From: Bacteroides salyersiae WAL 10018 = DSM 18765 = JCM 12988
GTDB lineage: Bacteria; Bacteroidota; Bacteroidia; Bacteroidales; Bacteroidaceae
Direction of reading: 5' to 3'
NCBI RefSeq assembly: GCF_000381365.1
Contig: NZ_KB905466.1
Span: 1,445,102 to 1,509,101 of the forward strand
Length of the DNA: 64,000 nucleotides
Below, piece after piece: positions 43,601 to 64,000 of this stretch; within the stretch, counting starts at the first letter, position 1; every line of letters begins with the position of its first letter. The notes below the pieces were generated by a model. It was given only the letters and a program-made list of their open reading frames with translations, had not been told where the DNA came from and ran no database searches. The position numbers and the translations under genes are program-made.

Positions 43601-43723
43601 CACTACTACCACTTCTTCAAGTGACTGTGCATCAGACTTTAGCACAACCTTTACAGTCGGTTTGATCGCCACTTCCTGTGTCTGCATTCCGATGTAAGAA
43701 ATCTGCAAAGTCTTTGCAGAACT
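40700..43723 (-). CDS. Promoterless SusC-like transporter body, silent cassette 1
   Basis: The gene body of a SusC/RagA-type TonB-dependent transporter, about 1,000 aa, from the end of the CarboxypepD_reg domain (QISYIGMQTQEVAIKPTVKV) through TonB box (EEVVVVAYGTASKK), plug (IDGTPYSGS, IESISVLKDAASSALYGNKAANGVILINTK) and barrel ending FGLNLKF. Signal peptide and first 67 residues are missing: homology to the active gene starts exactly at AGTTCTGCAAAG (43723 downward), and upstream the frame soon meets a stop without any Met. It is silent in this orientation and same-strand as the active gene. Confidence 0.93.
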   Translation of the reverse strand, partial: SSAKTLQISYIGMQTQEVAIKPTVKVVLKSDAQSLEEVVVVAYGTASKKSITGAVSALDAKDIEMRPVTNAAGSLEGSAPGIQINNTYGEPGSDKMSIRIRGFSSVNGENSPLIVIDGTPYSGSLNDVNSDDIESISVLKDAASSALYGNKAANGVILINTKRGKSERLNFRVSIKQGMYMRGLPQYDRLGIKDWMETMWKGEAEYAAIDMADKLGSMTPGEYATKNVMGIIKSNIFDAANDKLFDSNGNFIANVLPGYDDLDWSKEVERTGHRQEYNMSSDVAKDKYDVFASFGYLKEQGYTISSDFERFSARLNANFRPVKWFKAGVNLNGAVSKNNYSEGASEGGAAYANPFYQTMMMAPVYPIYKHNADGSIMTDEEGSKEYNLHIGGANDYLNDRHIIYEMKNDFDRKNRTTISGQTYGTVSFLKDFEATVKGDIYTYNQNRVRFNNTNVGDGAANNGRLFNYDDRQREYRFSQELYWKHDFDFHHVDVLLAHEAYKMTYSLNQYSKTNMMLEGNTQGSNFAETTSATGYEDNYTTESYLGRARYSYAMRYFADLSFRRDGSSRFRDPWGNFWSIGASWIISEENFMKSLNWINNLKLRASYGEVGNDQSAAYYAYQALYLADTNAHQGAYIKSQLANPELKWEKSSSIDIALEGRLFDRLNFSIDYFDKRSKDLLFDVYNPLSAGPTDLWGTTTVDPTGRSIITKNIGTVSNKGVDLALDADIIYNKNWRWNLGVNLTFLKNEIVKLPDHKDITKGVQKLSEGKSIYEFFTYTYAGVDQMDGMAIYVADPEKVTDDNISSGNVFEINGQYYCYNPGSYGLREWHGSALPKTYGSINTSLTYKGISLSMLGTFSLGGKVYDTNYASLMGMSANSASALHEDMLQSWNGTPEGITETSPNRIDPNGIPRAAMSTASQYFGISSSRWLQNASYFVMKNINLGYDFPSKITNKLNIDGLRVYASVENAFTIAARKGMNPQYSYSGGADQTYVTARVVSFGLNLKF
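43704..43718 (-). other. Recombination site, silent cassette 1
   Basis: TGCAAAG-A-CTTTGCA read on the minus strand, within the shared 20-bp word AGTTCTGCAAAGACTTTGCA. It is in direct orientation relative to the active site at 53219-53233. Similarity to the other copies stops abruptly on the promoter-distal side at 43723. Confidence 0.85.
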
Positions 43724-44173
43724 ATAATCATTATCAATGTATTTATAATCAATTGATTACATTTATTATTTTAACTTTGAAATATTATTTTTTATCATAC
43801 TATCAATTTGATAATCAATTATATATCGTTTTTGACTCTCCTGGTATAGTTATATATGAGATACCTATTTGTTGTTAAAATCTATATGTAATTAATTGGT
43901 ATTCAATCAATAGTGGTTTGTAATAATAATAAATTGAAATACTATTTCTTCACTTTATAGTTAATTGATTATTGTAATGTTAATTATTATTGCAGACCTT
44001 AAGGCAGTTTTATAATATCGAATATAAAAATGAAATCATAATTGCACTTGTAAAATGTGTATAAATATATTACTTGCAAATAGGCTCTTATTAGTGTTTT
44101 ACAATAAAACATGAACTCTACCTATATTTAAATTGCCATATAAAAATGGCGCATATAGTTAAAATTGCAATTT
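43724..44173. other. AT-rich intergenic region, no gene seen
   Basis: About 450 bp of very AT-rich DNA between silent cassette 1 and the ATPase gene. It holds scattered words such as ATTGATTA and TAATTGATTAT in both orientations but no convincing frame, promoter or terminator. It may be a leftover flank of earlier inversions. Confidence 0.5.
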
Positions 44174-44229
44174 AAAAGTTGCAATTTATTTGATTATTGC
44201 AACTTTTATCTGGCAGTTTTGTATCTTTG
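44174..44229 (+). promoter_or_regulatory. Promoter and perfect 12-bp inverted repeat before the ATPase gene
   Basis: AAAAGTTGCAAT (44174-44185) and ATTGCAACTTTT (44196-44207) form a perfect inverted repeat with a 10-bp gap. A Bacteroides -7 box TATCTTTG lies at 44222-44229 with a TTG about 22 bp upstream in the right arm. The repeat overlaps the -33 region, so a repressor site is likely. Confidence 0.5.
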
Positions 44230-44248
44230 TACTATAAACTTATATAAT

Positions 44249-45418
44249 ATGGAACAATTATTTGAACTTTTCCGTAGATTACTGAATTTGACAGATACAT
44301 CCTACATTCGCTATTTACACGACGATATCAATTGGTCTGCCAGAATGTTAGGAATAATAGGACCCAGAGGAGTAGGAAAAACAACTATGCTATTGCAGCA
44401 TATAAAGTTACATCACTCACTGGAAGATACGCTTTTTGTCAATGCCGATGATCTTTATTTCGCAGAACATAAGCTTTTCGATTTAGCTTCTGTTTTTTAT
44501 AAAAATGGTGGGAAACACCTTTTCATTGATGAAGTCCATAAGTACCAGAACTGGTCTAAAGAATTAAAAATGATTTATGATTATTTCCCAGACTTTCAAG
44601 TTGTATTTACCGGTTCCTCTATTCTTGATATTTACAAAGGAAATGCTGATTTAAGCCGCAGGGCATTGAGTTATTTCCTGCCAGGGCTTTCTTTTCGAGA
44701 GTATATAATGTTATCTAAGGGGATACAAATACTACCTTATTCTTTACAAGATATATTAAATCATAAAGTAGAACTTCCGGGAGTTAATCACCCGTTACCA
44801 TTGTTCAAAGAATATTTAGAAAATGGTTATTATCCATTTTTTAGTGATCCCGGATATGACCAACGCCTACGTAATATCATTAATTTAACTGTCGAAAATG
44901 ATATACCAATTTATGCAAATATGAATGTAGCAACTACCAAAAAAATCCGGCAATTACTTTATGTTATATCACAAAGTGTACCTTTTAAACCCAATTTTAC
45001 CAAAATTGGACAACTGATAGGCGTACATCGTAATCTTATTACTGATTTTCTATATTATTTAGAAAGAGCTGGTATAATAGCTCAGCTACGTAATGGTACA
45101 GGAGGAATTCGTTTACTCGGAAAAATAGAAAAGATCTATTTGGATAATACTAATTTAGTCTATGCCTTGGCTGAAAACAAACCCGATACAGGAAACATTC
45201 GGGAAACATTTTTTCTCTCTCAAATGAAAGTTCACCATAAAGTGATTTCATCAGAGAAGTCAGATTTTGAAATAGATAACTATACTTTTGAAATAGGAGG
45301 GGCAGGAAAACAGCAAAAACAAATACATGGTATAGAAAATGCTTATGTGGTAAAAGACGATATAGAATATGGATACAATAACACAATACCTTTGTGGCAT
45401 TTCGGATTCAATTATTAA
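44249..45418 (+). CDS. AAA-type ATPase with DUF4143 C-terminal domain
   Basis: Met 44249 (MEQLFELFRRLL) is chosen because it follows a -7 box by 20 bp, giving 389 aa. Walker A is GPRGVGKTT (about residues 41-49), Walker B is HLFIDEVHK (about 91-99) and sensor FTGSS follows (about 121). The C-terminal half matches DUF4143, with a winged-helix-like stretch and the end phrase HFGFNY. Such ATPases are abundant solitary genes in Bacteroidales with no settled role. It lies between silent cassette 1 and the active cassette, in DNA that direct-repeat recombination could excise. Confidence 0.85.
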   Translation: MEQLFELFRRLLNLTDTSYIRYLHDDINWSARMLGIIGPRGVGKTTMLLQHIKLHHSLEDTLFVNADDLYFAEHKLFDLASVFYKNGGKHLFIDEVHKYQNWSKELKMIYDYFPDFQVVFTGSSILDIYKGNADLSRRALSYFLPGLSFREYIMLSKGIQILPYSLQDILNHKVELPGVNHPLPLFKEYLENGYYPFFSDPGYDQRLRNIINLTVENDIPIYANMNVATTKKIRQLLYVISQSVPFKPNFTKIGQLIGVHRNLITDFLYYLERAGIIAQLRNGTGGIRLLGKIEKIYLDNTNLVYALAENKPDTGNIRETFFLSQMKVHHKVISSEKSDFEIDNYTFEIGGAGKQQKQIHGIENAYVVKDDIEYGYNNTIPLWHFGFNY

Positions 45419-45502
45419 CATTGCGGTAAATAGTAGCGCATGTTAAATCCATCCTATATTCCCAACAATACAATAAATAATTCAGATGGTCATGTAAAGA
45501 AA

Positions 45503-45540
45503 TGAAAAGAGGGTGCGCTTCACAAAAGGGTACCCTCTTA
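45503..45540 (-). terminator. Intrinsic terminator at the end of the active cassette
   Basis: Minus strand: AAGAGGGT stem pairing with ACCCTCTT (45507-45514 with 45532-45539) and a run TTTTC. It lies 43 bp past the last gene of the active cassette, between convergent genes. Confidence 0.6.
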
Positions 45541-45582
45541 CTATATATGCAATATAGCATCATTTCAAATAAATGTTATGAA

Positions 45583-46230
45583 TTATAAGCCAGATATAAA
45601 ATCGACGATTTTGACTATGCTTTCTGTATCATTCTTTATTCGATTCTTCTTTATAAATAATGCTATCTCTTTCTTTAGATCAGGAAACAACTTTACCAGT
45701 TCTTTGGCTTTAGTAAATTTCTTCAATTGATTATCTACTTCAATATAATACAGAACGTAAGGTTCCGCTTTATAGTTTTCGGGTAATTTCAATTGATAGA
45801 TTTCCCCGGATGTGTTTAATGATGAAATATTATCAACAGCCGTAGTTGAAGAAGTACCATAGCCGATGTTTTGTGCTTGAATACTCATCCGGCAACGATA
45901 AGAAGCGTATAAAGTATACTTATTCCGTGACAAGACTTCATAAAAACGATTGTCAACCGGAACAAACTTTCGTTTATCAAAATAGACCGTATCAATCTGA
46001 TCTATCGGATACAATGCCATATTCTTACCTTCTGGTGAAATATAAATCATCTCTTCTGTGGCTTTATTATAATTGAGTGCAGTCCGATTTTCCTTCTTGT
46101 TTTTGTATAAAATCGTGGCGTCTCTAAACTGGTTGAACAGAAAATGATTATCTATACTCTGTCCTACAACATTAACTCCCCAAAACAATAAGGGGGCTAT
46201 TTGTATGATACGGATTTTTAGCAAATTCAT
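45583..46230 (-). CDS. Secreted protein of unknown function, active cassette
   Basis: A 215-aa protein with an N-terminal hydrophobic signal (MNLLKIRIIQIAPLLFWGVNVVGQ). The mature part has a beta-rich region (ATEEMIYISPEGKNMALYPIDQIDTVYFDKRKFVPVDNRF begins near residue 58) and a Lys-rich helical C terminus. Its ATG overlaps the M6 protease stop by four bases, so the two are co-translated. No family recognised; a protease partner, inhibitor or chaperone is a reasonable guess from the coupling. Confidence 0.7.
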   Translation of the reverse strand: MNLLKIRIIQIAPLLFWGVNVVGQSIDNHFLFNQFRDATILYKNKKENRTALNYNKATEEMIYISPEGKNMALYPIDQIDTVYFDKRKFVPVDNRFYEVLSRNKYTLYASYRCRMSIQAQNIGYGTSSTTAVDNISSLNTSGEIYQLKLPENYKAEPYVLYYIEVDNQLKKFTKAKELVKLFPDLKKEIALFIKKNRIKNDTESIVKIVDFISGL

Positions 46231-48008
46231 TCTATAAATATTTTTCGTTTATACATATTGTTTCCGGATAGAATGGATACAATATAGATACCTTGAGAAA
46301 ATTGTTTCAACGAAAGTTGGTTCGTGTTTTTAGTTTGTTCCAAAACTTTGCCTGAAATATCTGTTACGACAATAGACTCAACGTTTTCATCTGATGACAC
46401 ATACAGTGTATTATCCACCATTTTTAGTTGCATCTTTCTATCATCAAAAAGATTTTCAAAGCCAGTAGGAATATCTTCTATTTCGAAAGTCAACTTATCA
46501 TCTTCCATGATCACATTTCTAATTCTCAGGCCACCGTCCGAATTATCTGACAAGAAAGGCTTAGGGAATGTTTTATCTGTCATTACAGCACCCGAAGTTG
46601 TCTGATAAGCGGCTTCATCCAAAAAACCATTTTCCGTTAATGAACCAAAGGGACGATAAATATAAACTTCATCAGGAGGACCGTTGCGATTCCCTTCACT
46701 GACCGTTGTATTGATTCTATAAATGAGTAGCCCTGACCGGATCAGATTTTTTTCATACTTTCCTTCTTTTTTCCGGTATTCCAAAACAAAATATTCATTT
46801 GGATTAGTAGAGTTAACTTTATAACAACTATTTTCTGCACTCTGAGATAATGGAAGTAGTGTATAGGTACCCGGTTGGGTTATTGTAGGCATATCTTTAA
46901 TCCAACTTTGGCCTGCATACATCCATTTCATATAGGCTCCCATGTGACACCAACCACTGTTCATCAGATCCCAACTACCCACAGGATCGAGATTCTGACT
47001 TTCTTCACTATAATGATATAAATCCGGTGCACCTAATGCATGGAACATCTCATGGCAAAGTGTATTCACGGTAACTTGGTTCTCGGGTTGGAAAACATAA
47101 TCCATCACTCGCTTACCATGAATGTAGCATTCCTTAGTATAAAGCGACCAACGGTGTGCCCACAATAAATCACTCCAGCCATCACTATTTCCTTGAATGA
47201 CAAAACAGACATTGTCTATATAGCCGTCGTTGTCATTATCCAGCTCATCCGGCGTAAAATCTTGTTCGATACTGGCTTTTACTGCATCAATAGCATTTAC
47301 TATCAAGTTATGTTCTCTATTTGTCGACTCGTCACTTGTTTTATAGCCATCAGGGTTAGTTGTTGCATTATAAGGGCGATAAAAGCCTCTGTTATGAAAA
47401 TCGATGTAACCATTAGCGGTAGAAGTCATATCCGAAGTTTTGGGATAAAAATGTGAAGTGATATCCAAATTACTGTATGATACCTCCTTATAATAGTCTT
47501 TCAATGATCCGCTCGAAGATGTAGTACTATTGAACCGACTGTCATATACCGATCTCTTTTTTGAGAATGTGGTAGCATCTTTAAAAGAAACAAATATGAC
47601 GATATTGTTTAATGGATTTTTATGAGAGGCATATTGAGGTTTAGTAGTTCTGGTCATTGGCTGAATTTGCATTCGTTCCCGGCGTTTGTCGTATTGTTGT
47701 TTTGATATTTTCAACCAAGGAACGATTTTTGTTTTTGATGGTAATTCATCATCCACCCGATATATTGAAGGTACCAGTTCTCCTTTATCGTTTTTAATTG
47801 CATAATAACAATAACCATCTTCTGCTTGTACAATGGTGTACCCGTCTTTATCATGTATCCAATGATAAAATTCGTCACCAGATGCATACAAAGCTAACTG
47901 ACTTCCATCGGCTTGAGTAACAATGGTTTCCAAAAAGCGGAAAGGAGCTGCATATATACCCAAACATGTGCAACACAGAAAGACAATAAATAATAGATTC
48001 CTTTTCAT
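46227..48008 (-). CDS. Secreted M6-family (immune inhibitor A-like) metalloprotease
   Basis: Met 48008 (MKRNLLFIVFLCCTCLGIYA) is chosen, giving about 593 aa with a signal peptide. After a propeptide-like domain (about 22-110) comes the metalloprotease domain with NTLCHEMFHALGAPDLYHY (zinc motif HEMFH about residues 319-323, then GxPD as in M6 metzincin-like enzymes). The C terminus (about 520-593) is a Por-like sorting domain. It would cleave proteins at or outside the cell surface and supply peptides to the SusC/SusD pair upstream. A strong hairpin sits just before it; the next gene overlaps its stop. Confidence 0.88.
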   Translation of the reverse strand: MKRNLLFIVFLCCTCLGIYAAPFRFLETIVTQADGSQLALYASGDEFYHWIHDKDGYTIVQAEDGYCYYAIKNDKGELVPSIYRVDDELPSKTKIVPWLKISKQQYDKRRERMQIQPMTRTTKPQYASHKNPLNNIVIFVSFKDATTFSKKRSVYDSRFNSTTSSSGSLKDYYKEVSYSNLDITSHFYPKTSDMTSTANGYIDFHNRGFYRPYNATTNPDGYKTSDESTNREHNLIVNAIDAVKASIEQDFTPDELDNDNDGYIDNVCFVIQGNSDGWSDLLWAHRWSLYTKECYIHGKRVMDYVFQPENQVTVNTLCHEMFHALGAPDLYHYSEESQNLDPVGSWDLMNSGWCHMGAYMKWMYAGQSWIKDMPTITQPGTYTLLPLSQSAENSCYKVNSTNPNEYFVLEYRKKEGKYEKNLIRSGLLIYRINTTVSEGNRNGPPDEVYIYRPFGSLTENGFLDEAAYQTTSGAVMTDKTFPKPFLSDNSDGGLRIRNVIMEDDKLTFEIEDIPTGFENLFDDRKMQLKMVDNTLYVSSDENVESIVVTDISGKVLEQTKNTNQLSLKQFSQGIYIVSILSGNNMYKRKIFIE

Positions 48009-48019
48009 AATATATTTGT

Positions 48020-48060
48020 TTTTAGACAAATAAGGTCACCTTAATATCAGGTGACCTTAT
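48020..48060 (-). terminator. Hairpin between lipoprotein and M6 protease genes
   Basis: A perfect 12-bp stem ATAAGGTCACCT/AGGTGACCTTAT (48030-48041 with 48049-48060), loop 7, followed on the minus strand by TTTGTC. It lies 24 bp after the lipoprotein stop and 22 bp before the protease start: terminator, attenuator or mRNA processing/stability site. Confidence 0.7.
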
Positions 48061-48083
48061 CAAGTTATTGATTACTCATTTTA

Positions 48084-48971
48084 TTACTTTTTTGTAAAAG
48101 TAACACTGCCTTGCATCCAATATTCAAACCATGCATACGGAACACCTAATTCATAAGCAAGGAATCCAAATCCATTATCTTCATTCAATGTAATTATCCC
48201 ATTATCATAAGTTGCCATTACATTATCAGTTTCGCTATAATATTGTTTCCCATCTTCGACTGTTGTCCATACGAAATGAGCAATATATCCAGCTTGTGCT
48301 TCTCCTACATCTTGATTCTTATAGAATGTGATAACCGTCTCCCCATCTTCTTCACCAACAGAAGCTAAAACAACTTCCGGATATCCAAAGTCAACTTCTA
48401 TTTCGTTCAATGCTCCAGCATCGTGTGCTGCTATTGTAACATCATATCCATTAGGAGAAGCCTGTCCTTGAGATATCAGAATTCCTTCCATTGCATACGT
48501 TCCAAACAAATATGATAACGGATGTTCATCGTCTGCAATGGATATTTTTACAGAGTTCTGAACGGATTCTTTCAATTCAGGAGTACTACTTGCAATCGTA
48601 AGTGTAAATGTCTTTTTTCCTGTGAATACATTATTATCAATAGGACGAATTACAATATTCTGAGTTCCATAGCCTTCTTCAAAAGTGATTTCTTTATTGT
48701 CTATTGTGAAATCTTCACCTTCAATGGCTGGATTCGTATCTCCCTCTGTTGAAACGGCCAATGTAACAGTAACTTTACCGCTTCCGGGGATACCGGCCAA
48801 TACTAATGGAATCTCTAAAGGTTCAGTAGCATTTTCATTTACAGAGGCAGTTGTTTTTGAAAAACTGGCGTTGCTATCTTCTGCATTGAATGACTGCGGA
48901 ATGTTATCATCACATGAAGCAATAACAAATAAAGTTCCGACAGCCAGAATTAAATATTTCAATTTTCTCAT
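48084..48971 (-). CDS. Surface lipoprotein with Calx-beta-like domain, active cassette
   Basis: A 295-aa lipoprotein (lipobox VIASC followed by DDNIP, a surface-export-type acidic start). Residues about 35-150 form a Calx-beta/immunoglobulin-like domain (ASVNENATEPLEIPLVLAG, GEDFTIDNKEITFEEG). The C-terminal 140 residues are beta-rich with many aromatics (FGYPEVVLASVG, AWFEYWMQGSVTF), a likely binding domain. It lies 19 bp after SusD and probably sits with the SusC/SusD complex on the outer surface, binding substrate. A different lipoprotein takes this place in silent cassette 2. Confidence 0.82.
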   Translation of the reverse strand: MRKLKYLILAVGTLFVIASCDDNIPQSFNAEDSNASFSKTTASVNENATEPLEIPLVLAGIPGSGKVTVTLAVSTEGDTNPAIEGEDFTIDNKEITFEEGYGTQNIVIRPIDNNVFTGKKTFTLTIASSTPELKESVQNSVKISIADDEHPLSYLFGTYAMEGILISQGQASPNGYDVTIAAHDAGALNEIEVDFGYPEVVLASVGEEDGETVITFYKNQDVGEAQAGYIAHFVWTTVEDGKQYYSETDNVMATYDNGIITLNEDNGFGFLAYELGVPYAWFEYWMQGSVTFTKK

Positions 48972-48989
48972 TTGTTTCTGTTTTTAGAA

Positions 48990-50435
48990 TTAATATTTGT
49001 TCTGAATCATATTTTCATTTGCATCTATTTCTGACTGAGGAATAGGCAATACATAATAAGGGCTGTCAGCTGACACTTCCTGTGCATCAGAACTTGCACC
49101 TGTGCCATCAGCAAGGAACCCTTTATCGTCACGGATCACATCTTCGTGACGACGCTTCAGATCAAAGAACCGATGTCCTTCAAATGCAAGCTCCAAACGT
49201 CTTTGTAACTGAATTTCCTTTTCCAATGCAGATCCGGCTTCAGTACCTTCTTCATAATCAGAATAACGTTTTGCACGTAATAGATTCAAATCACTCAGCG
49301 CCTCCGGATAATTCTTTAAGTTGTAATTGGCTTCAGCGCGTGTCATATACATTTCAGATGTACGGATAAGAGGAATGTCAACCAAACCTACAGTAGCTCC
49401 ACCATTATTCCATTTCCATACAACGTTGCACAAACCACTCTTACAGGTCACTTGCTTTATAACTGCATTACGACAGTCTGTACCTGAATACAATGATTTT
49501 AATCCATAAGAAACAGAGTAGTTAGCATTATAATTGCTTACACTTCCCTGTCCCCAGTCATTACCTGGCAAATAACCGTCATCAGACTTCAACGCAATAC
49601 GTAATATAACCTCTGGAACATCCATGCTCGTAGTGTATATTTTACTAAAGTCATCGATACCGGCAATATCAGAACCGTCACCAGCTATCGCTTCAGTAGC
49701 ATTATCCACAGCCAATTGGTCTTTTCCCATCGTCAGATATACGCGTGCCAAAATTGCTGCAATAGCCTTTTTATTTAAACGATAATTGATTGTCGTATTA
49801 TAATCATCGCTCATCATCCCTTTGGCTCTTTCCAAGTCTTCCGTCAACCAGGTATATACCTCTTTTACCGTGTTACGAGCCGGAAGCGTTGTTTCCGTAT
49901 CTTTTTTATAAGTTACCCCCAAGTCAGAATCGGAAGCTTGGAGATAGTTTTTACCATAAAGGCGTACCAGGTCAAAATGGATCATTCCGCGCAAAGCGAG
50001 ACATTCAGCCAACAAGTTCTTACCTAATTTTTCATCTGAAGCAATGATTGAAGGATCACTTTCCATGCGTGTAATAACCTCGTTTGCTCCCAATATGGCA
50101 TTGTATGCAGCACTCCACATTCCACTTACACCATAAGTGTCGGCATAAAATTTAAATCCGGCAAACTCGTTATAGATAAGACGTCCGTCACGGTTCAGAA
50201 TCAGATTGTCTGACATCACATCAGGTACCATCAACATAAAATTGGCTGTGTAGGATGAAGAACGCATCGATTCATATACACTATTTGTGGTATTATTAAA
50301 ATCTTCTAAAGATTCTAATGCGTTATCGCTGTTCAGTGAGTCATGGGGAGTTGTGTCCAAAAAATCAGCACATCCCGTAAATGAAAGACTCAAAAAAGCG
50401 ATTACCGGTATTATTGTTTTTCTTGATAGTTTCAT
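48990..50435 (-). CDS. SusD-like lipoprotein, active cassette
   Basis: A 481-aa SusD/RagB-family lipoprotein, lipobox FTGC then ADFLD. Signatures: LAECLALRGMIHFDLVRLYGKNY (about 130-155), AIAILARVYLTMG, IPLIRTSEMYMTRAEANYNLKNYPEAL, and QRRLELAFEGHRFFDLKRR. Its short length (481 aa) resembles the peptide-import type (RagB-like) more than large glycan SusDs, though length alone is weak evidence. It starts 28 bp after the SusC stop and is co-transcribed. Confidence 0.93.
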   Translation of the reverse strand: MKLSRKTIIPVIAFLSLSFTGCADFLDTTPHDSLNSDNALESLEDFNNTTNSVYESMRSSSYTANFMLMVPDVMSDNLILNRDGRLIYNEFAGFKFYADTYGVSGMWSAAYNAILGANEVITRMESDPSIIASDEKLGKNLLAECLALRGMIHFDLVRLYGKNYLQASDSDLGVTYKKDTETTLPARNTVKEVYTWLTEDLERAKGMMSDDYNTTINYRLNKKAIAAILARVYLTMGKDQLAVDNATEAIAGDGSDIAGIDDFSKIYTTSMDVPEVILRIALKSDDGYLPGNDWGQGSVSNYNANYSVSYGLKSLYSGTDCRNAVIKQVTCKSGLCNVVWKWNNGGATVGLVDIPLIRTSEMYMTRAEANYNLKNYPEALSDLNLLRAKRYSDYEEGTEAGSALEKEIQLQRRLELAFEGHRFFDLKRRHEDVIRDDKGFLADGTGASSDAQEVSADSPYYVLPIPQSEIDANENMIQNKY

Positions 50436-50463
50436 ACTTTATTTTTTTAATGAAAAAACTTTA

Positions 50464-53439: not shown

Positions 53440-53495
53440 AAATTCTCTCTTAAAGTTTAACTTTACATTAATTGTTTCTTTACTCTAACAAAATG

Positions 53496-53526
53496 CAAAT
53501 ATATTAATAAATATGAAACGAGCAAT
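53496..53526 (-). promoter_or_regulatory. Promoter of the phase-variable SusC operon
   Basis: On the minus strand, -7 box TATATTTG (53496-53503, perfect TAnnTTTG), 19 bp spacing, and ATTG (53523-53526) as a near-consensus -33. The start codon lies about 50 bp downstream of the expected transcript start. It lies inside the invertible segment. The remaining gap 53527-53890 is AT-rich and must hold the recombinase promoter, which I cannot place with confidence. Confidence 0.55.
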
Positions 53527-53890
53527 TATTTTTGCGAAAAAAGCTTGTGTTAATAACAAATTGTTATCAAAATGAGCTTGTTTATGCTCAACAGCATATA
53601 ATCATAGCTTAAAAAACCTAAACAGAGTATCAAATAATAACATGTTGTATTGACGAAAAGTACGATTTTATCGTTCATTTTCTGTTTTTCACTGCAAATT
53701 TTGGCAAAAAGCTCTCCATTTTGACTAATGGAAAAGCTTTATAAACAAAAATTCCGCATTTTTTTTAAAAGAAATTCATTAGTTATAATATATGTTTTTA
53801 CGCTTTTAGCAGATATTAAAACTTATTCAGTTCTTATATAGGCCATATATACGTCTTATTTGTTTATAGTATTAATTCAAAATTAACCTA

Positions 53891-55072: not shown

Positions 55073-55088
55073 AATCAGGAAATATCCT

Positions 55089-55176
55089 TTCCGGGTATCG
55101 TGCCCACCGTCCGTATGCCCGGTAATCACCATCCGTATGCTCGGTGCTTACGCCCCGTATGCCCGATACTTGGGGG
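55089..55176 (+). repeat. Four 22-bp degenerate tandem repeats with CCGTATG word
   Basis: Units start at 55089, 55111, 55133 and 55155, exactly 22 bp apart; the last three begin CCGTATGC(C/T)CG. The spacer-like word ATCCGTATG also occurs in the palindromic array at 4984-5101. A run of eight G (55172-55179) closes the block. It directly follows the recombinase stop. Confidence 0.65.
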
Positions 55177-55330
55177 GGGTATTTGTACAGAGACTGGAAA
55201 GCAGCAGGGCCCCTTCACCCTGTATCGCCGATGAACAAAGCAGTGAAGCAAAAAAGGTAAAGCCGGTGAAAGGGGAAAAAATAGACAGAAAAGATATCCT
55301 GAAGAATAAAAACATTCATCAGAAAAAAGA

Positions 55331-55462
55331 TGCTACATCTTTTTTTGAAACCTGCACATCTTTCCGTTGCAACCTGTTACATCTTTTTTTGAGAGATACT
55401 ACGTCTTTTTTTGAAAGGTGCTATGTCTTTTTGAAAAAGATGTTACGTCTTTTCAAGCAGAC
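55331..55462 (+). repeat. Six 22-bp degenerate tandem repeats, TGCTACATCTTTTTTTGA type
   Basis: Units start at 55331, 55353, 55375, 55397, 55419 and 55441, exactly 22 bp apart, each with (T/C)A(C/T)(A/G)TCTTT near its start and GAAA-like ends. Unit identity is moderate. It lies within the invertible segment between recombinase and silent cassette 2. An open frame crosses the block but has no family resemblance. The rest of 55463-56014 is AT-rich without a gene. Confidence 0.65.
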
Positions 55463-56014
55463 AGGAGGTACTGATGTATATGGGTTTGGGTTGACGCTGT
55501 CACAACTTATTTTTTGCGATTACTAAGATTATTATATATACTATTGATTTTTTCATTTATTTAATTTATACATAATTCTGTTTATAAAAGGTTGTTATTT
55601 CAACATCATCAGATGACCTTTCAATCGACAGATAGTTTGACCGGGAAAATATCAGATACATTCGCTATATTCTTACAGGATTTTGAAATATTGATTCAGC
55701 GCAATGGTTTCATAAATTACTATAACTAATTATATTAAATACTATAATAATTATTGACTTTACGATGTGTTAATAACTAAATAGTATCAAAGTGGTATTT
55801 CTGTATAATATATATATACATTATTAATTATTGATTATAAGATGATTAAATCTCTATTTAGGCGAAAATAAGGTATACATATTGTACAATAATATTCATA
55901 TATTTTATATATAATACACTGATTTATAATAAAATAATATATGGATTAATAAATACAGCAAAGTACTGATGTTTTTCTATAAACAACTAATTATAAGCAA
56001 TTTAAAATAAGATT

Positions 56015-58984
56015 AGTTCTGCAAAGACTTTGCAAATTTCGTTTATTGGTATGCAGACCCAAGAAGTTGCAATAAAGCCGTCCCTGAAAATATTCCTTAA
56101 ATCCGATTCTCAGATGATTGATGAGGTGATGGTAGTAGCTTATGGTACTGCCAAGAAATCGTCGTTTACCGGTTCTGCATCGACGGTAAAGGCCGATAAA
56201 CTGGCCGAGCGTTCTGTTTCCAATGTAACGAATGCATTAGCCGGCCAGGTATCCGGAGTACAAACCATTGCCAACAATGGACAACCGGGTAGCGCTGCTA
56301 CTGTCCGCATTCGCGGTATCGGCTCCATGAGTGCGAGCAACTCTCCTCTATATGTAGTGGACGGTATTCCTTTTGATGGAAGTATTTCTTCTATCAATCC
56401 GCAGGATATTGAAAGTATGACCGTATTGAAAGATGCGGCTGCAAATGCCATTTATGGTGCCCGTGGTGCCAACGGAGTTATCTTGATAACTACTAAAAAG
56501 GGAGATTCTAAAGAAGCTGTTATCACTGTAGATGCCAAATGGGGTTCTAATCGTCGTGCAGTGCCTACCTATGATGTAATGACAGATCCGGGTATGTATT
56601 ATGAAACAATGTATCGTGCATTGTATAACTCAAAAGCATACAATGGTTCCAGTATGACAGAAGCTTATGCTTTTGCCGACGCGGCTTTGCTGGATGATAA
56701 AAATGGTGGTGTCGGTTATTTGGTATATACAGTTCCTGAAGGAGAAAAACTGATAGGTACAAACTTCAAACTCAATCCTAATGCTACATTGGGATATTCT
56801 GACGGCAAATATTATTATAGACCGGATGATTGGTATGATGAAGCATTTGGTAATTCCAATCTTCGTCAGGAGTATAATGTATCTGTTGCAGGTGCTTCCG
56901 ATAAAATAAACTACTACATGTCAGCGGGTTATCTGGATGACTCCGGTATTGTTCCCGGTTCGGGTTTTACACGCTTCACCGGACGTGCAAAAGCTGATTA
57001 TCAAGCAAAAAAATGGTTGAAAGTCGGTGCTAATATAGGATATACCTATTATAATATACAATCCCCGAGCGGACAAACTACATGGGGCTCAAGCGGCAAC
57101 TTGTTCCAGCTTACCAATATGATTGCTCCGATTTATCCTGTATATGTACGTAATCCAGACGGAAACATTCAAGTGGACGAACGCGGATTGACTGTTTATG
57201 ATTTTGGTTCTTCTACGAACTTTGTCCGCCCCAGTATGTCGGGTAACCCCCTGGGAACAATGGACTTGGATAAGCAAAATGCTTATACAGATGTAATCAA
57301 CAGTAAATGGTATGCCATTTTAACTCCGATAGAAGGGTTGTCTATTACAGCCAATATCGGTGCTAATGTACGTAACCAGCGCAGCAATGAGTTATCAAAT
57401 CCATTTTATGGTTCGAGCGTAAGTAGCGGTGGAGCAGTTTATGTGGCTCATTATCGGGAATTTGCAATCAATCAGCAGTATCTTGCAACTTACAAAAAGA
57501 CTTTTGCAAATTTACATAATTTTGATGTTTTGGCAGGATACGAATCATATAATTTGAAAATACAGGAATTACAAGGTAGCAATACTAAAATTTATAATCC
57601 GACTATCGGTGAATTAAGCAATGCAATTGCATCTCCTCCTAAGGTGGCTTCTTTTACGAATGAATATACTACAATGGGATTCTTGGGCCGTATTCAATAT
57701 GACTATGATGGTAAATACTTCCTTAGTGCATCTTATCGTCGCGATGCTTCTTCCCGTTTCCATCCGGACAACCGTTGGGGTAACTTCGGAAGTGTAGGTC
57801 TTGCATGGCTCATCAGCCAAGAGAACTTCATGTATAATGCAAAATGGGTAGACATGTTAAAGTTTAAGGCAAGTTATGGTATACAGGGTAATGATAATCT
57901 TGGAAACTACTATGCGTACGCCGACCAATATTCAGTAACAGACAGTAACGGTGATTTTGCAGTATCGTTCACTTACAAAGGTAATAAAGATATTACATGG
58001 GAAACATCGTATGCATTCAATACCGGTGTCGATTTCGAGTTATTCGGTAGCCGCTTAAATGGTACAATTGAATATTTTAATCGTAAAACGGTGGATTTGC
58101 TCTATAACCAACCTGTGCCTATTTCCATGGGATACGCTACTATTCCGATGAATGTAGGTTCAATTGTGAACCAAGGTGTAGAGATCGATTTGAACGGAGT
58201 ACTTTACAAAAATAACAATATAGAATGGCTTGCTAATGTCAATGCAACTCATTATAAAAATAAGATTACCGATCTTGCAGAATCAGCTAAAAATAACGGC
58301 GGTATAAAATACAGCAATGCTATTTACCGTATCGGTGGTTCTTTATATAACTCATACTTGCCGGTATATGCAGGCGTTGACCACGATAACGGTAAAGCAT
58401 TATATTATGTTGATCCTGACAATGGTGATTATAACACTACTGATGATTATTCAAAAGCAAAACAGTCTGACTTAGGCAGTACTTTGGCAAAAGTATACGG
58501 TGGTTTCGGTACACAGTTGAATGCTTACGGTGTCGATCTTTCCGTACAGTTCTCTTATCAACTTGGCGGTAAGTTGTATGATGGTACTTATGAAGCTTTG
58601 ATGCATCGTGGTGACGGTGCAGGAACCAATTTCCATAAAGATGTTTTGGAAGCATGGACTCCGGAAAATCCGAATTCAAACGTTCCACGTCTCTGTGCTT
58701 CGGATGACACTAACCAGAAACAGTCATCCCGATTCCTGGTCAGCTCGGATTATTTGAGCTTGAATAGTGTCATGTTAGGATATACATTCCCGAAACGTTT
58801 GACAAATACACTCGGTATCTCAAGTTTACGTCTGTATGTTTCCGGCGAAAACCTGGCCGTTATATCCGGTAAAAAAGGATTGGATCCACGTCAATACTGG
58901 GGATTAGGTAGTTCTACTACTTCCGGTAGTTTCCGATATTCGGCACTGAGAACAATTTCCGGTGGTATTACTTTGAAATTCTAA
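56015..58984 (+). CDS. Promoterless SusC-like transporter body, silent cassette 2
   Basis: About 990 codons of SusC/RagA body starting at AGTTCTGCAAAG, with QISFIGMQTQEVAIKPSLKI, TonB box (DEVMVVAYGTAKK), plug (LYVVDGIPFDGS, IESMTVLKDAAANAIYGARGANGVILITTKKG) and barrel ending GGITLKF. It lacks a Met start, signal peptide and most of the CarboxypepD_reg domain; an annotated TTG or internal ATG start would be artificial. It is on the plus strand, inverted to the active gene, so a single 2.8-kb inversion would complete it in frame. Confidence 0.93.
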   Translation, partial: SSAKTLQISFIGMQTQEVAIKPSLKIFLKSDSQMIDEVMVVAYGTAKKSSFTGSASTVKADKLAERSVSNVTNALAGQVSGVQTIANNGQPGSAATVRIRGIGSMSASNSPLYVVDGIPFDGSISSINPQDIESMTVLKDAAANAIYGARGANGVILITTKKGDSKEAVITVDAKWGSNRRAVPTYDVMTDPGMYYETMYRALYNSKAYNGSSMTEAYAFADAALLDDKNGGVGYLVYTVPEGEKLIGTNFKLNPNATLGYSDGKYYYRPDDWYDEAFGNSNLRQEYNVSVAGASDKINYYMSAGYLDDSGIVPGSGFTRFTGRAKADYQAKKWLKVGANIGYTYYNIQSPSGQTTWGSSGNLFQLTNMIAPIYPVYVRNPDGNIQVDERGLTVYDFGSSTNFVRPSMSGNPLGTMDLDKQNAYTDVINSKWYAILTPIEGLSITANIGANVRNQRSNELSNPFYGSSVSSGGAVYVAHYREFAINQQYLATYKKTFANLHNFDVLAGYESYNLKIQELQGSNTKIYNPTIGELSNAIASPPKVASFTNEYTTMGFLGRIQYDYDGKYFLSASYRRDASSRFHPDNRWGNFGSVGLAWLISQENFMYNAKWVDMLKFKASYGIQGNDNLGNYYAYADQYSVTDSNGDFAVSFTYKGNKDITWETSYAFNTGVDFELFGSRLNGTIEYFNRKTVDLLYNQPVPISMGYATIPMNVGSIVNQGVEIDLNGVLYKNNNIEWLANVNATHYKNKITDLAESAKNNGGIKYSNAIYRIGGSLYNSYLPVYAGVDHDNGKALYYVDPDNGDYNTTDDYSKAKQSDLGSTLAKVYGGFGTQLNAYGVDLSVQFSYQLGGKLYDGTYEALMHRGDGAGTNFHKDVLEAWTPENPNSNVPRLCASDDTNQKQSSRFLVSSDYLSLNSVMLGYTFPKRLTNTLGISSLRLYVSGENLAVISGKKGLDPRQYWGLGSSTTSGSFRYSALRTISGGITLKF
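56020..56034 (+). other. Recombination site, silent cassette 2
   Basis: TGCAAAG-A-CTTTGCA on the plus strand, in inverted orientation to the active site. Beyond the 20-bp word this copy diverges (ATTTCGTTTATTGG against ATTTCTTACATCGG in the others), which narrows the needed homology to the 20-bp word. Confidence 0.88.
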
Positions 58985-59008
58985 TGTTAATAACTAAACG
59001 ATGAAATT

Positions 59009-60658
59009 ATGAAAATGGCAAATAAATATTTAGTCCTGGTCTTAGGAGGTTCGTTGATCGCATCTTGTGCCGATCTTGATACGATTCCTGAAGGCGGAAC
59101 ATTTACAAATGAACAAAAGCAACAAGTAGTTGAGATGATGCCCGAACGATTACAGGCCGATGTAACCGGTATGTTTTCTCAAATATCGGCATCCTATAAG
59201 GTCATATTCACCAGTGCCCGTGATGATGATTTCGGTTATCCGGCAGTGTGCCTTTCCCAGGATTTGAATGGTCCGGATATGGTTTCAACCAACTCTGATT
59301 ATAACTGGTTCTCTACCTGTAGCGAATTTTCTGATCGTAGCGATACATATGCCAATCCGTATTTACGTTGGGCTTTGTTTTACAACCAGATCAAGCAGGC
59401 AAATGACATCTTGAAGTCTATTCCTGCTGATACGGATAATACGACATTGCTTCGTTATAAAGCGCAGGCAAAAGCGGTTCGTGCATTCGATTATTTATGT
59501 ATAGTTCCTTATTTCCAGTTTAAATACAAAGGGAATGAAGACAAGCCTACCGTTCCTCTTGTAACGCATGATATGGAAGGAGATCCGTCAAGCAATCCAC
59601 GTGCAACAGCAGAAGCTGCTTATAAATTAATCATGGATGATTTGAATGAGGCGATTGACATATTCAAAGACTTAAACTACACCCGTTCTTCTAAAAACGA
59701 AGTGGACTTGAATGTGGCTTATGGACTTCGCGCCCGCGCCAATCTGTATATGGAAAATTGGGCCGAAGCAGCATCCGATGCTCAGGAAGCAATGAAGGGA
59801 TATGCTCCCTATACTCGTGAAGATGTTTCCAAACCGACATTTATAGATCATAAGGCTGCAAACTGGATATGGGGAGCGATCATAGCAGAAAGCAACATTC
59901 AACGTCAGCTTACTACCTGGCCGGCTGCTTATAGCTCTTTCGCCGGTAGAGGATATGCAACCGGACAAGGCTGTTATAAGATGATCAATAACTTGTTATT
60001 CCGGAAAATCCCACATACAGACGTGCGTAAAGGCTGGTGGGTAGACGAAAATTTACATTCGGACAATCTGGCTGATTTGACTTGGGGAGATGCAATTGGC
60101 GATGAAATCGCATCATTATCTATCCCGGATGTAAAAGTTCCGTTTGCGCCTTATACCAATGTAAAATTTGCACAATACGGTGGAGTAGGTAATGATAAAA
60201 ATGCAGGTGACTGGTGTATGATGCGCTATGAAGAGATGTTGCTGATTGCCGCCGAAGGTACGGCTATGGCAGGGGATCTACCGGGAGGTAAGGCTATTTT
60301 GGAGAACTTCATAAAAGCTTATCGTGATGAAAATTACGTATGTACTTCTGCAGATGCAACTTCTTTCCAGAATGAAGTTTGGTTCCAACGCCGTGTAGAA
60401 CTTTGGGGTGAGGGATTCTCGATGGCAGACATCATGCGTCTCGGCAAAAATATCGTACGTGTAAGCAGTGCGGTAACAACCAATTTTCCTGGTAATTTCG
60501 CATTTAATATTGCATCCAATGATGGTTGGTTATTGATGCGTATACCTCAAGATGAGACTAATAGTAATGCCGGTATTCCTTTATCAGCAAATAATAATGG
60601 CGGTCGTCAACCTCAACCGGGAGACGGTGCCGGCTTGAAAGATGGTGTAACGGACTAA
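59009..60658 (+). CDS. SusD-like lipoprotein, silent cassette 2
   Basis: A 549-aa SusD/RagB-type lipoprotein, lipobox LIASC then ADLDT. N-terminal helices (AQAKAVRAFDYLCIVPYFQFKYKG) and C-terminal signatures (MRYEEMLLIAAEGTAMAGD, WFQRRVELWGEGFSMADIMRLG) are visible. It lies 25 bp after its SusC partner, with the GTTAATAACTAAA word in between. It has no separate promoter that I can see, so it should be off in this orientation. Confidence 0.92.
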   Translation: MKMANKYLVLVLGGSLIASCADLDTIPEGGTFTNEQKQQVVEMMPERLQADVTGMFSQISASYKVIFTSARDDDFGYPAVCLSQDLNGPDMVSTNSDYNWFSTCSEFSDRSDTYANPYLRWALFYNQIKQANDILKSIPADTDNTTLLRYKAQAKAVRAFDYLCIVPYFQFKYKGNEDKPTVPLVTHDMEGDPSSNPRATAEAAYKLIMDDLNEAIDIFKDLNYTRSSKNEVDLNVAYGLRARANLYMENWAEAASDAQEAMKGYAPYTREDVSKPTFIDHKAANWIWGAIIAESNIQRQLTTWPAAYSSFAGRGYATGQGCYKMINNLLFRKIPHTDVRKGWWVDENLHSDNLADLTWGDAIGDEIASLSIPDVKVPFAPYTNVKFAQYGGVGNDKNAGDWCMMRYEEMLLIAAEGTAMAGDLPGGKAILENFIKAYRDENYVCTSADATSFQNEVWFQRRVELWGEGFSMADIMRLGKNIVRVSSAVTTNFPGNFAFNIASNDGWLLMRIPQDETNSNAGIPLSANNNGGRQPQPGDGAGLKDGVTD

Positions 60659-60679
60659 TAATAATCGTTTTAAATAAAT

Positions 60680-61615
60680 ATGAAGAATATGAATAAATAT
60701 ATTAAATTTGCAGTATTAGGAGTATTGTCATGGGCTCTTGGTGCTTGCTCTGATGATCTTGAGAGAGACCCCTCTCCAACGGTAAGTCCTGATTGTGTCG
60801 GTGTTTATTTCTCTGAATCCAATACCTATAATTATGAACTCGATCCGGCTATCACTTCATTAACTCTAACTGTAGGCCGTGATAAAACGGACGGGGCAGT
60901 GACTGTACCTGTAAAAGTGATAAACAATTCTAATAATGTTTTCGTAATTCCGGAGTCGGTATCTTTTGCAGCCGGTGAAGCTGAGACAACTATGGTAGTT
61001 ACGTTCCCGAATGCAGAAATGGGAGTTGAATATAGTTTTGAGTTGACTTTTGATTCCGATTATGTCAACCCGTATAAAGGAGCAAGTCTGGCCAAAACCA
61101 GTATACAACGTATCAAATGGGAAAGTATCGGTATGGGTGTTTATGTAGATGGTACTGTTTCCACTTTCTTCGGAGTTAGTCCGATGGCAGTAGGGATCGA
61201 GATTGAAAAAGCTGATTTGGGAAGTTCTATGAAATATCGTTTTAATAACGCTTATGCTCCAGCAGAATATTATATTAGTAGAGATCCTGTAATATATGAC
61301 GGATATCCCTATAATGAAACATTCCTGGGAGAGCGCCAGTTTGTATTGACATCTACTATTGATGGGGTGACGATGCAGGTCGCAAAAACCGGTCTAAACC
61401 TGGGGTATGGTGAAATGATAATTGGTACTGTTTATGGAAACTTGTCAAATGACATTAAAACATATCCATTGGGGACGATTGCAAACGATGTGATAACGTT
61501 CCCTGCCAACTCTCTCTTTATTCAGGATAATGATGGCGCAGCTCCCGCCAGCAAAAATCCAACGAAATTATATTTAAGCATTGATGTTTATAAAGCGAGT
61601 CTTACAGATGAATAA
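60680..61615 (+). CDS. Surface lipoprotein, silent cassette 2
   Basis: A 311-aa lipoprotein (lipobox ALGAC followed by SDDLERD, an acidic surface-export-type start). Residues about 40-150 form an Ig-like or Calx-beta-like domain (TVPVKVINNSNNVFVIPESVSFAAGEAE begins near 75); the C-terminal half is beta-rich. It occupies the position of the Calx-beta lipoprotein in the active cassette but its sequence is clearly different. It probably binds the cassette's own substrate at the cell surface. Confidence 0.8.
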   Translation: MKNMNKYIKFAVLGVLSWALGACSDDLERDPSPTVSPDCVGVYFSESNTYNYELDPAITSLTLTVGRDKTDGAVTVPVKVINNSNNVFVIPESVSFAAGEAETTMVVTFPNAEMGVEYSFELTFDSDYVNPYKGASLAKTSIQRIKWESIGMGVYVDGTVSTFFGVSPMAVGIEIEKADLGSSMKYRFNNAYAPAEYYISRDPVIYDGYPYNETFLGERQFVLTSTIDGVTMQVAKTGLNLGYGEMIIGTVYGNLSNDIKTYPLGTIANDVITFPANSLFIQDNDGAAPASKNPTKLYLSIDVYKASLTDE

Positions 61616-61635
61616 TAGCTGACTTTGACAAATTG

Positions 61636-61674
61636 AAATCCCCTTGCTCTTCTCAAAAGTAAGGGGATTTTTAT
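61636..61674 (+). terminator. Terminator-like hairpin between lipoprotein and C10 protease genes
   Basis: A stem AAATCCCCTT/AAGGGGATTT (61636-61645 with 61661-61670), followed by TTTTATT. It lies 21 bp after the lipoprotein stop and 57 bp before the protease start, in the same place as the hairpin at 48020-48060 in the active cassette. Confidence 0.8.
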
Positions 61675-61730
61675 TCTGGAGATTAATAGTTGCCGAGTAT
61701 CGAACCTTTATTATATAAAAATATATATTT

Positions 61731-63569
61731 ATGAGACGTAATCTGTTTTGGCTTTTTCTTTTTTCATCATCATTGTTATGGGCAGATAATGTAACCGTGT
61801 CGAGAGCGGAGCAATTAGCCCGCACATTTTTCGAAAATCAGGAAACAACCCGTTCCGTTGAAACGAAATATGAATACGTATGGAATGGTGAAAGCGCGCA
61901 AACGCGTACTGATGCCATACCGGCCTTTCATGTTTTCAATCGTATTCCTCAAGGCGGGTTTGTTATTATTGCCGGTGATGATGTGGCAGTTCCTGTATTG
62001 GCATACAGCAATACTGGAAAATTTGAGGTTGAAAACATGCCATCTAATTTACAAAACTGGATGACATGCTATCGGGAAGAGATTAATTGGAGCAGAGCAC
62101 AAAATAGGGTTCCGTCTGCATCAATAACAGCACTGTGGAACAGTTTGGAAAATGGATACTTATCAGACAATGCAGAAAATGAAGTGCTGTTGGAAACTGC
62201 TCTATGGAACCAAGGCACTCCTTATAACAAAATGTGTCCGCCGATAGATGGGATTATAGCTCCAACGGGTTGTGTAGCAACTGCATTGGCTATCGTCATG
62301 AAATATAACCGTTGGCCGGATAAAGGAAATGGCGCTACATTTTCATATACGACACGGACTTATGAAAGAACCGTTTCTGCAAATTATACGGTAACTTACG
62401 ATTGGGACAATATGCCGGATATTTATGAAGAAGGTGTTTATACTCCGACGCAAGCCAATCAGGTGGCAAGGTTGATGTATCACTGTGGTGTGCTTTCCCA
62501 GATGGATTATACACCTAAAGAAAGTGGAGCTTTCACTTTGATAGCCGCCCGGGGAATGGTAGATTATATGAAGTATGATAAAAGTATGACTGTACTGGAA
62601 AAGGAATGGTACACAAGTGACGAGTGGGATGCTTTGTTAAAAGCGGAATTAAATACCGGCCGTCTTGTGATTTATGGTGGAAGTAATAGCCAGCGTGAGG
62701 GGCATCAATTTGTTTTTGATGGTTACAAAGCCGATAGGTATCATGTAAATTGGGGATGGGGCGGCACAGCTAACGGGTATTATTTATTATCAACGCTGGA
62801 GCCTGACCAACAAGGTATAGGAGGTAATTCCGGCGGAGGATTTTCTATCGGACAAAATGCAATAGTAGGTATAAAGAAAGCTGAAACCGGTTCAAGCTAT
62901 CGTGATATGCTGGCCTTTTTTAAAGGGAGTTCAGGTGGAGTTACTTATAGCGGATTATCTACGACAGAAACAAAATTCTTACCTAATACTCAGTTTGATG
63001 TAATGGCTGCGTTTATAGCGAATTATGGTCTTCGCAATTTTGCCGGTACCATAGCCTTAGCATTGGTTGGCGAGAATGGGGATGTAAAAGAGTTTATATC
63101 CAGAGAATATGCCGTTTCTAAATTGGAGGCAATGGATGGTAACAGCGGAAGTATGCCCGGTAGCGGATATTCGCTCACCTGTACCATTACCAAAACTCCG
63201 GAAAGTGGTGATCGGATTTGGTTAATGTATCGTGCAAATGATGTTGAAACATGGAGTCAAGTGAAAGGAGGTCGGGATGTAACTACAGAAATTGTAGTAA
63301 AAGCAGGAGGAACAGGTCTAAAAAAAACGGAGCAAAATAATATATCGAATGTTATCGTCACAAATGATAATAACCGGATTTTTATAAAATCTCCTGTAAC
63401 AATGACAATGTTGATGATCTATGATATAAAAGGACAATTACAAAAGGCAATCGAATGCCCGGAAAACGTAGAGTTCAATTTTTCATGCGAAGATTACGAT
63501 TCCGGCATATATATACTAAAGGTAATTACTACCGAAGGGGTAAGTTCCGCTAAATTTATTAAGAATTGA
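61731..63569 (+). CDS. Secreted C10-family (streptopain-like) cysteine protease
   Basis: A 612-aa protein with signal peptide (MRRNLFWLFLFSSSLLWA). The propeptide (about 20-150) has the C10 inhibitory-type pattern (FHVFNRIPQGGFVIIAGDD). The mature papain-like domain has Cys181 in PTGCVATALA and His325 in EGHQFVFDGY, followed by HVNWGWGG, all matching streptopain-type enzymes. The C-terminal 75 residues form a Por-like sorting domain (LMIYDIKGQLQK, GIYILKVITTEG). It should mature by self-cleavage and digest extracellular proteins. It follows a terminator, so expression may need read-through or a weak own promoter. Bacteroides species carry several C10 proteases; this one belongs to a silent SusCD cassette. 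Confidence 0.93.
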   Translation: MRRNLFWLFLFSSSLLWADNVTVSRAEQLARTFFENQETTRSVETKYEYVWNGESAQTRTDAIPAFHVFNRIPQGGFVIIAGDDVAVPVLAYSNTGKFEVENMPSNLQNWMTCYREEINWSRAQNRVPSASITALWNSLENGYLSDNAENEVLLETALWNQGTPYNKMCPPIDGIIAPTGCVATALAIVMKYNRWPDKGNGATFSYTTRTYERTVSANYTVTYDWDNMPDIYEEGVYTPTQANQVARLMYHCGVLSQMDYTPKESGAFTLIAARGMVDYMKYDKSMTVLEKEWYTSDEWDALLKAELNTGRLVIYGGSNSQREGHQFVFDGYKADRYHVNWGWGGTANGYYLLSTLEPDQQGIGGNSGGGFSIGQNAIVGIKKAETGSSYRDMLAFFKGSSGGVTYSGLSTTETKFLPNTQFDVMAAFIANYGLRNFAGTIALALVGENGDVKEFISREYAVSKLEAMDGNSGSMPGSGYSLTCTITKTPESGDRIWLMYRANDVETWSQVKGGRDVTTEIVVKAGGTGLKKTEQNNISNVIVTNDNNRIFIKSPVTMTMLMIYDIKGQLQKAIECPENVEFNFSCEDYDSGIYILKVITTEGVSSAKFIKN

Positions 63570-63624
63570 TTGCTGATTTAAGGAGGATATAAACGAATAA
63601 CGTTTATAATATCTTACATCAAAG

Positions 63625-63664
63625 AAAGGGTAATTATCGTATTTCGACAGTTACTCTTTTTATT
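63625..63664 (+). terminator. Intrinsic terminator after the C10 protease
   Basis: A 9-bp stem AAAGGGTAA/TTACTCTTT (63625-63633 with 63651-63659, one G-U-type mismatch), followed by TTTTATT. The rest of the gap to 63950 is AT-rich with no gene seen. Confidence 0.55.
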
Positions 63665-63950
63665 GTTCTGCTCATTTATAAAGTAAATTAATTAGTAACG
63701 GACATATTATTAGTGACTTAAAAGTATATCTTCAATACGACACAAATAAGATAAGTAATTTATAATCTACTATAATACAGGTGGTTATATTAAAAACAAA
63801 GTACTGTAATAGTAGAAATGACTAAAACAAAGTTTTACTACAAAATAGTTAACATTTTTATTTTCAGCAAGTTATATTCTTTTCAATATTCTTTTATTAG
63901 TTCTTCTTGCTTTTGTATCTATATGTATATCAGTACAATAACATACTGAT

Positions 63951-64000
63951 AGTTCTGCAAAGACTTTGCAGATTTCTTACATCGGAATGCAGACACAGGA
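63951..64000 (+). CDS. Start of a third silent SusC cassette (cut by window edge)
   Basis: Fifty bases identical to the active gene's codons 68-84 (SSAKTLQISYIGMQTQ), preceded by unrelated AT-rich DNA with no start codon or signal peptide. This is the signature of the other silent copies, so another promoterless SusC body, and probably its SusD, should follow outside the window. Confidence 0.82.
63956..63970 (+). other. Recombination site, silent cassette 3
   Basis: TGCAAAG-A-CTTTGCA on the plus strand, in inverted orientation to the active site. The flanking 50 bp from AGTTCTGC onward match the active gene exactly. Confidence 0.85.

Follow-up and report, generated by a model that had tools for sequence, protein, structure and literature searches.

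The hflX-marC locus of Bacteroides salyersiae WAL 10018 very probably constitutes a four-cassette SusC/SusD shufflon, in which copies of a 20-bp word located inside susC reading frames likely serve a tyrosine recombinase as sites of DNA inversion. This would connect one predicted promoter and a constant SusC start of 67 residues with each of four different SusC bodies, and with the operons downstream of them, in turn. The window, i.e., the whole stretch of 64,000 nucleotides that was analyzed (contig NZ_KB905466.1, positions 1,445,102 to 1,509,101, forward strand), ends at a 105-N gap. Its relevant features are listed below by window position and strand; heads preceding a word are designated P, S, S' and S'', and the tails following it A, B, C and D.

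36828..38090, minus: HflX-like GTPase, left border of the locus, a border in relatives too
39031..40680, minus: SusD of cassette C, no protease behind it
40700..43703, minus: SusC body of cassette C (silent), profile match
43704..43723, minus: word, exact match, silent junction S''|C, same orientation as the active site
44165..45418, plus: AAA_14 ATPase in segment 1, between S'' and the end of cassette A and on the strand opposite to that cassette
45583..46230, minus: 215-aa protein of cassette A without Pfam family, conserved in the similar cassette of G073
46227..48029, minus: predicted secreted M6 metalloprotease of cassette A with HEMFH and a T9SS-type tail (TIGR03296, 143.9 bits, cut-off 110.8)
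48084..48971, minus: Calx-beta protein of cassette A, lipoprotein-like N-terminus read by eye
48990..50435, minus: SusD of cassette A, profile match
50464..53218, minus: SusC body of cassette A (plug and barrel), profile matches
53219..53238, minus: word, exact match, active junction P|A, codons 68-74 of susC A
53239..53439, minus: constant SusC head with start codon, signal peptide and residues 1-67, from full-length matches and a DNA alignment of 22 modules
53239..56014, no strand: invertible module P-recombinase-S between two inverted words, present again, identical and reversed, at genome position C1:1509301-1512076
53496..53503, minus: predicted Bacteroides -7 box TATATTTG, 57-64 nt before the susC start
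53891..55072, plus: tyrosine recombinase, 393 aa, with Arm-DNA-bind_5, SAM-like and Phage_integrase domains
56015..56034, plus: word, exact match, silent junction S|B, inverted relative to the active site
56035..58984, plus: SusC body of cassette B (silent), profile match
59009..60658, plus: SusD of cassette B, profile match
60680..61615, plus: 311-aa lipoprotein-like protein of cassette B without Pfam family, N-terminus read by eye
61731..63569, plus: predicted C10 cysteine protease of cassette B with propeptide and T9SS-type tail (PF01640, 217.8 bits; PF13734; TIGR04183)
63951..63970, plus: word, exact match, head S', 105-N gap directly after the window

The word, AGTTCTGCAAAGACTTTGCA, is present in four exact copies in the window, at 43704 (minus), 53219 (minus), 56015 (plus) and 63951 (plus), while the number expected from shuffled sequence is 0.01 even when three mismatches are allowed. 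The entire 5.3-Mb genome contains six exact copies, every one of them at the hflX-marC locus within a span of 23.3 kb. A whole-genome search found no other place within two mismatches and, at up to three mismatches, a single further and unrelated one. Three additional three-mismatch matches in the window are known word sites seen on the opposite strand, a consequence of the palindrome in the middle of the word. Extended by the next base in A, C and D (CTGCAAAGACTTTGCAG), this middle is a perfect palindrome around one base; even so, the SusC body always lies 3' of the word for every word beside a readable cassette. A literature search for the letters of the word returned one match, which was unrelated.

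Each word encodes SSAKTL, and SSAKTLQIS is a conserved coding stretch. A full SusC body follows four of the six words in frame, whereas the remaining two have tails that the N gap cuts short after 16 and 31 codons. In agreement with the first-pass annotation, all four words of the window sit at the starts of SusC reading frames. The copy at 63951, which had been taken for a readable fourth cassette, does not have one, since merely 30 nt follow the word before the 105-N gap. The real fourth member, cassette D, resides beyond the window; its word is found at C1:1512077-1512096 and the SusC joined to it starts at 1511876.

Within the window, promoter box, start codon and signal peptide occur together at one word copy only, the one joined to a complete SusC gene (50464-53439, 991 aa, signal peptide). 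The heads that precede B, C and the word at 63951 have neither a TANNTTTG box in 300 bp nor an in-frame start codon, and the nearest in-frame stop is 12-36 nt upstream. The earlier description of one complete SusC gene accompanied by silent copies that lack promoter and start is thus borne out, as is that of a complete tyrosine recombinase gene between the active copy and the nearest inverted silent copy (53891-55072). This protein has the R, HxxRH, LGH and Y residues of the tyrosine recombinase motif. Together with head P, which appears once in the window and once again beyond the gap, the recombinase gene is part of a 2.8-kb module. The distance from recombinase start to head end is 662-667 nt in 21 of 22 relatives and 927 nt in L094. 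The box TATATTTG before susC, called with the Bacteroides -7 consensus, is conserved among the aligned modules (22 of 23 rows, L094 having been dropped and loci with broken or missing recombinase or head excluded); two other TANNTTTG matches occur in the intergenic stretch, at 53885 (minus) and 53527 (plus). The SusC head shares 79-93% identity among full-length matches. It had been thought to comprise 71 constant residues, which is corrected here to residues 1-67, with the word itself encoding residues 68-74. The crossover position falls inside a CarboxypepD_reg-like domain (26-107) and upstream of the plug (115-223), in keeping with the earlier proposal that plug and barrel are exchanged together with the downstream operon.

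Between the recombinase gene and the silent S site, three near copies of TGCTACATCTTTTTTTGA were observed at 55331-55414. Another tyrosine recombinase, distantly related (G000 C1:1526002-1527141, 29% identity), is encoded about 14 kb beyond the last word. An Rfam scan of positions 43000-64000 found no RNA family at gathering scores.

The silent SusC bodies are open throughout (984 aa in B, 1002 aa in C) and have intact SusD partners. The TIGR04056 profile is matched from position 1 by SusC A and D but only from position 47 by B and C. Cassette D encodes a SusC of 1040 aa, SusD, a 335-aa lipoprotein-like protein and an M6 protease (HEFSH). Cassettes A and D share an M6 end-protease, followed in A by the gene for the 215-aa protein, while B has a C10 enzyme and C none. 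The cassette A protease was assigned to M6 by NCBIfam; a PDB search with it yielded two weak, unrelated matches (E 0.27-0.28). The T9SS-type tails of the proteases could be used, because the genome also has SprA, a core protein of T9SS. Solved-structure relatives of SusC A and B include RagA, which is the best structure match for B; A and C score higher with the SusC homologue 8aa4. PMC7782687 presents the RagA system as a peptide transporter and mentions a Bt2263/64-peptide complex. The cassettes of the window may possibly import peptides as well.

The order of the locus would be C|S''-seg1-A|P-module-S|B-seg3-S'|D, each word linking one head to one tail, where the connection of S' to D in the present state is our assumption. 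Inversions between oppositely oriented words would preserve this rule. The crossover is placed inside the word because heads differ just before it and tails A and B just after it. Enumeration showed that 12 arrangements can be reached through inversion alone, with B or D brought to P in one step and C, whose site is in direct orientation, in two, which agrees with the initial expectation that a series of inversions reaches every cassette. The role of the enzyme is inferred from linkage and site covariation; inversion would be the usual route, and only the cassette joined to P would be expressed. A simple invertible promoter, which flips while the coding sequence stays unchanged, does not describe the locus, since the word resides inside the susC frame and the module carries residues 1-67.

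For comparison, 158 genomes of the genus were searched. The exact word was found in 23 and a recombinase orthologue (E<=1e-90) in 95 of them, and loci were fetched from the 22 other word-bearing genomes and from 19 further recombinase-bearing genomes, the latter chosen near the top of the score list and not at random.

The strain's own assembly already contains alternative junctions. To the right of the gap the identical module is found in reversed orientation, with P joined to D and S joined to 94 bp of A, which are identical to the start of cassette A including the 20-bp word (74 nt past the word). Left of the gap the junctions are P|A and S|B, right of it S|A and P|D. The right-hand state is three inversions away from the left-hand state, if segments 1 and 3 are both kept. 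We consider it probable, judging by the sequence, that the doubled module represents two states of one locus assembled side by side. If the strain instead truly had two modules as an inverted duplication, two promoters could drive two importers at once, and in this strain the word would be a sign of gene duplication more than of an active switch. We regard this as unlikely, even though the assembly contains the module twice, identical over 2.8 kb, the one-contig genome G073 carries a protease cassette in two inverted copies (98.2% over 8.5 kb) and G124 also has the module twice. The recombinase is single-copy in 90 of the 95 recombinase-bearing genomes (E<=1e-90), the second copy starts at the gap with just 74 nt of cassette A beyond the word, and the left contig ends on the last base before tail A departs from C and D. 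Furthermore, contigs or gaps end at most 107 nt from the word in at least 7 of 42 genomes (G000, G014, G022, G042, G047, G140 and G143), which were spotted by eye among the fetched stretches and then measured. Both contig ends of G022 are found 107 nt beyond the word; adding the word itself makes 127, a k-mer size common among assemblers, and breaks of this kind would be expected from mixed junctions in the DNA.

Also note that in L131 (G042) an N run begins at the SusC head end, another assembly break at the switch site. In G124, words and recombinase occur twice in mirror-image order near both record ends (C1:23089-32048 and 5172000-5180959), which may be due to a genuine inverted duplication or to the effect of inversion on the assembly.

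Relatives likewise contain alternative junctions with breakpoints at the word, and the comparison of related genomes that the first-pass annotation had proposed did not find one arrangement throughout. G081 and G143 (L078 and L085) are nearly identical to each other at the locus, yet rearranged at the word: all four heads and all four tails are common to both, three of the four junctions differ, and the breaks fall at the word, with heads 94.7-100% identical (94.7-99.7% for those that changed partner) and tails 100% identical over 300 nt. In G009, G044 and G059 (L072/L084/L074 group), heads P and S are 97-100% identical and tails are traded; the tail joined to P is the same in G044 and G059 but another one in G009, and the tail of S is different in each of the three. 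Of 37 loci from 36 genomes, two of them from G143, 16 have the promoter directed at hflX and 15 at marC; the direction is unassigned in five and conflicting in one (L146). On a recombinase tree of 31 loci, from which the six without clear orientation were left out, 12 orientation changes were counted, compared with a mean of 10.6 for shuffled labels, and G009 and G059 have identical recombinases with promoters facing opposite ways. As the changes are no fewer than in the shuffles, and given this last pair, we conclude that across the observed divergence orientation is not inherited.

An origin of these rearrangements through gene conversion or homologous recombination between SusC paralogues, as opposed to site-specific recombination, is highly improbable. 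Tails are indeed similar in stretches beyond the word, but heads S, S' and S'' are mutually unlike in the 60 nt before it, heads only 46-58% alike also trade tails exactly at the word, and a recombinase relative adjoins the sites in 28 of 30 loci scanned. That B and C are merely broken, 5'-truncated genes of a decaying SusC family, with the word a conserved SSAKTL coding motif, is scarcely credible: SSAKTLQIS is conserved in coding sequence and the TTG starts from ORF finding are weak, but the bodies are open over 984 and 1002 aa next to intact SusD partners, and the same tail that is silent in one relative is joined to the head with the start codon in another.

For the shufflon reading itself, the word, the single complete head in the window, the in-frame startless silent tails, the recombinase and the alternative junctions are present in the DNA as it stands. 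The word varies between clades, e.g., AGTTCTGCGAAAACTTTGCA, yet repeats within a locus: the locus's own word occurs in at least two copies (at most one mismatch) in 32 of 42 loci and once in 10, four further loci having given no usable word. In 37 relative loci, 14 have both the hflX-side and the marC-side border, 17 have one, five have neither within the stretch, and one is in conflict (L146). We counted several points against a shufflon: sites in direct orientation should also delete segments, the middle of the word is palindromic, and there are the single-word loci (10/42) and missing or broken recombinases. The system is evidently not always kept, because 63 of the 158 genomes are without a recombinase at E<=1e-90 and the gene is broken or incomplete in some relatives (e.g., G060, G039, G032 and G145). 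In L144 and L145 (G107 and G093), hflX and HAD enclose a recombinase orthologue but neither a SusC head nor a cassette, which looks like a stripped remnant. In L143 (G111), the conserved SusC head enters unrelated sequence right at the expected word position.

Related switches are known. In the R64 pil shufflon (Rci), a constant N-terminus is combined with alternative C-terminal parts by a tyrosine recombinase, just as proposed here. Only C-terminal segments of one protein are swapped in R64, whereas about 920-1010 residues plus whole operons would be swapped here. Nakayama-Imaohji 2009 reportedly described a B. fragilis SusC/SusD shufflon driven by Tsr0667. Two further articles attribute this shufflon to Tsr0667 and report the enzyme as acting at three SusC/D clusters and nine other regions (PMC4747536, PMC11852207); the latter also mentions the R64 pil shufflon. 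As far as described there, the two SusC/SusD systems share a single tyrosine recombinase, several inversions and outer-membrane genes of this type, but the exact word occurs at one locus only in the present genome and the cassettes carry proteases. In B. fragilis NCTC 9343, PMC5729914 describes the region EE intergenic shufflon with inverted repeats at the starts of ragA/susC homologues. Alternative pairs are brought behind one promoter via inverted repeats in both cases; the promoter of region EE is, however, described as invertible itself, and gene pairs rather than protease operons are involved. For B. thetaiotaomicron, PMC6080902 treats a locus with BT2264/2263 and BT2268/2269 (MAFF) and calls BT2267 an invertase homologue. 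Our relative G001 has the same module as the present genome, with a recombinase of 72% identity and flanking hflX and marC, and one of its silent cassettes equals BT_2264 over 984/984 residues. The cassettes are different ones, that with BT_2264 in G001 encoding SusC, SusD and proteins of 230 and 166 aa and no protease.

The mechanism is thus not new, because SusC/SusD shufflons with tyrosine recombinases have been published (Tsr0667, region EE, BT2267). The first-pass annotation had rightly referred to such reports and had missed the protease cargo. It is this cargo in cassettes A, B and D that looks like the new aspect; among the matches listed, titles and abstract openings contained no protease-bearing SusC/SusD shufflon cassettes, most subscription papers being outside our reach. 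Protease cargo as a typical trait of such shufflons was rejected, since M6 or C10 enzymes were found near the word in 0 of the 22 other word-bearing genomes, a count in which cassettes cut by contig ends could hide some matches. Its restriction to this genome was rejected too, as G073 has M6 and G084 and G036 have C10. Altogether, 4 of 42 genomes examined have M6 or C10 cargo at the locus, 19 of the 42 having been screened there by BLAST against the proteins of the window. Many cassettes of relatives consist of SusC/SusD only or of these plus one to a few genes, mostly unnamed or unscanned. In G073 (L127/L128, C1:2800000-2834999), an A-like cassette (SusC, SusD, Calx-beta protein, M6 protease and a 211-aa protein) is present in inverted copies that flank one module (98.2% over 8.5 kb), so either orientation of the module could drive similar cargo.

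Because the operons of A, B and D end in a predicted secreted protease gene, the switch would change importer and protease together. We tentatively suggest, without giving it the better odds, that the unit of exchange is a whole protein-foraging kit that includes, besides importer and lipoproteins, a secreted protease of its own (M6 for A and D, C10 for B). If true, individual cells within a clone would be committed to the digestion and uptake of different proteins, and cassette C would be an importer without protease.

Our analysis assigns the B. fragilis and B. thetaiotaomicron type of switch to a single locus, widely shared and bordered by hflX and marC, and allows its rules, alternating heads and tails and one promoter, to be read from natural rearrangements. 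Switching may explain why assemblies break or double at this locus. Moreover, the switch is linked to predicted proteases and, via BT_2264 and the RagA relatives, possibly to peptide import, so that a question of substrate becomes testable.
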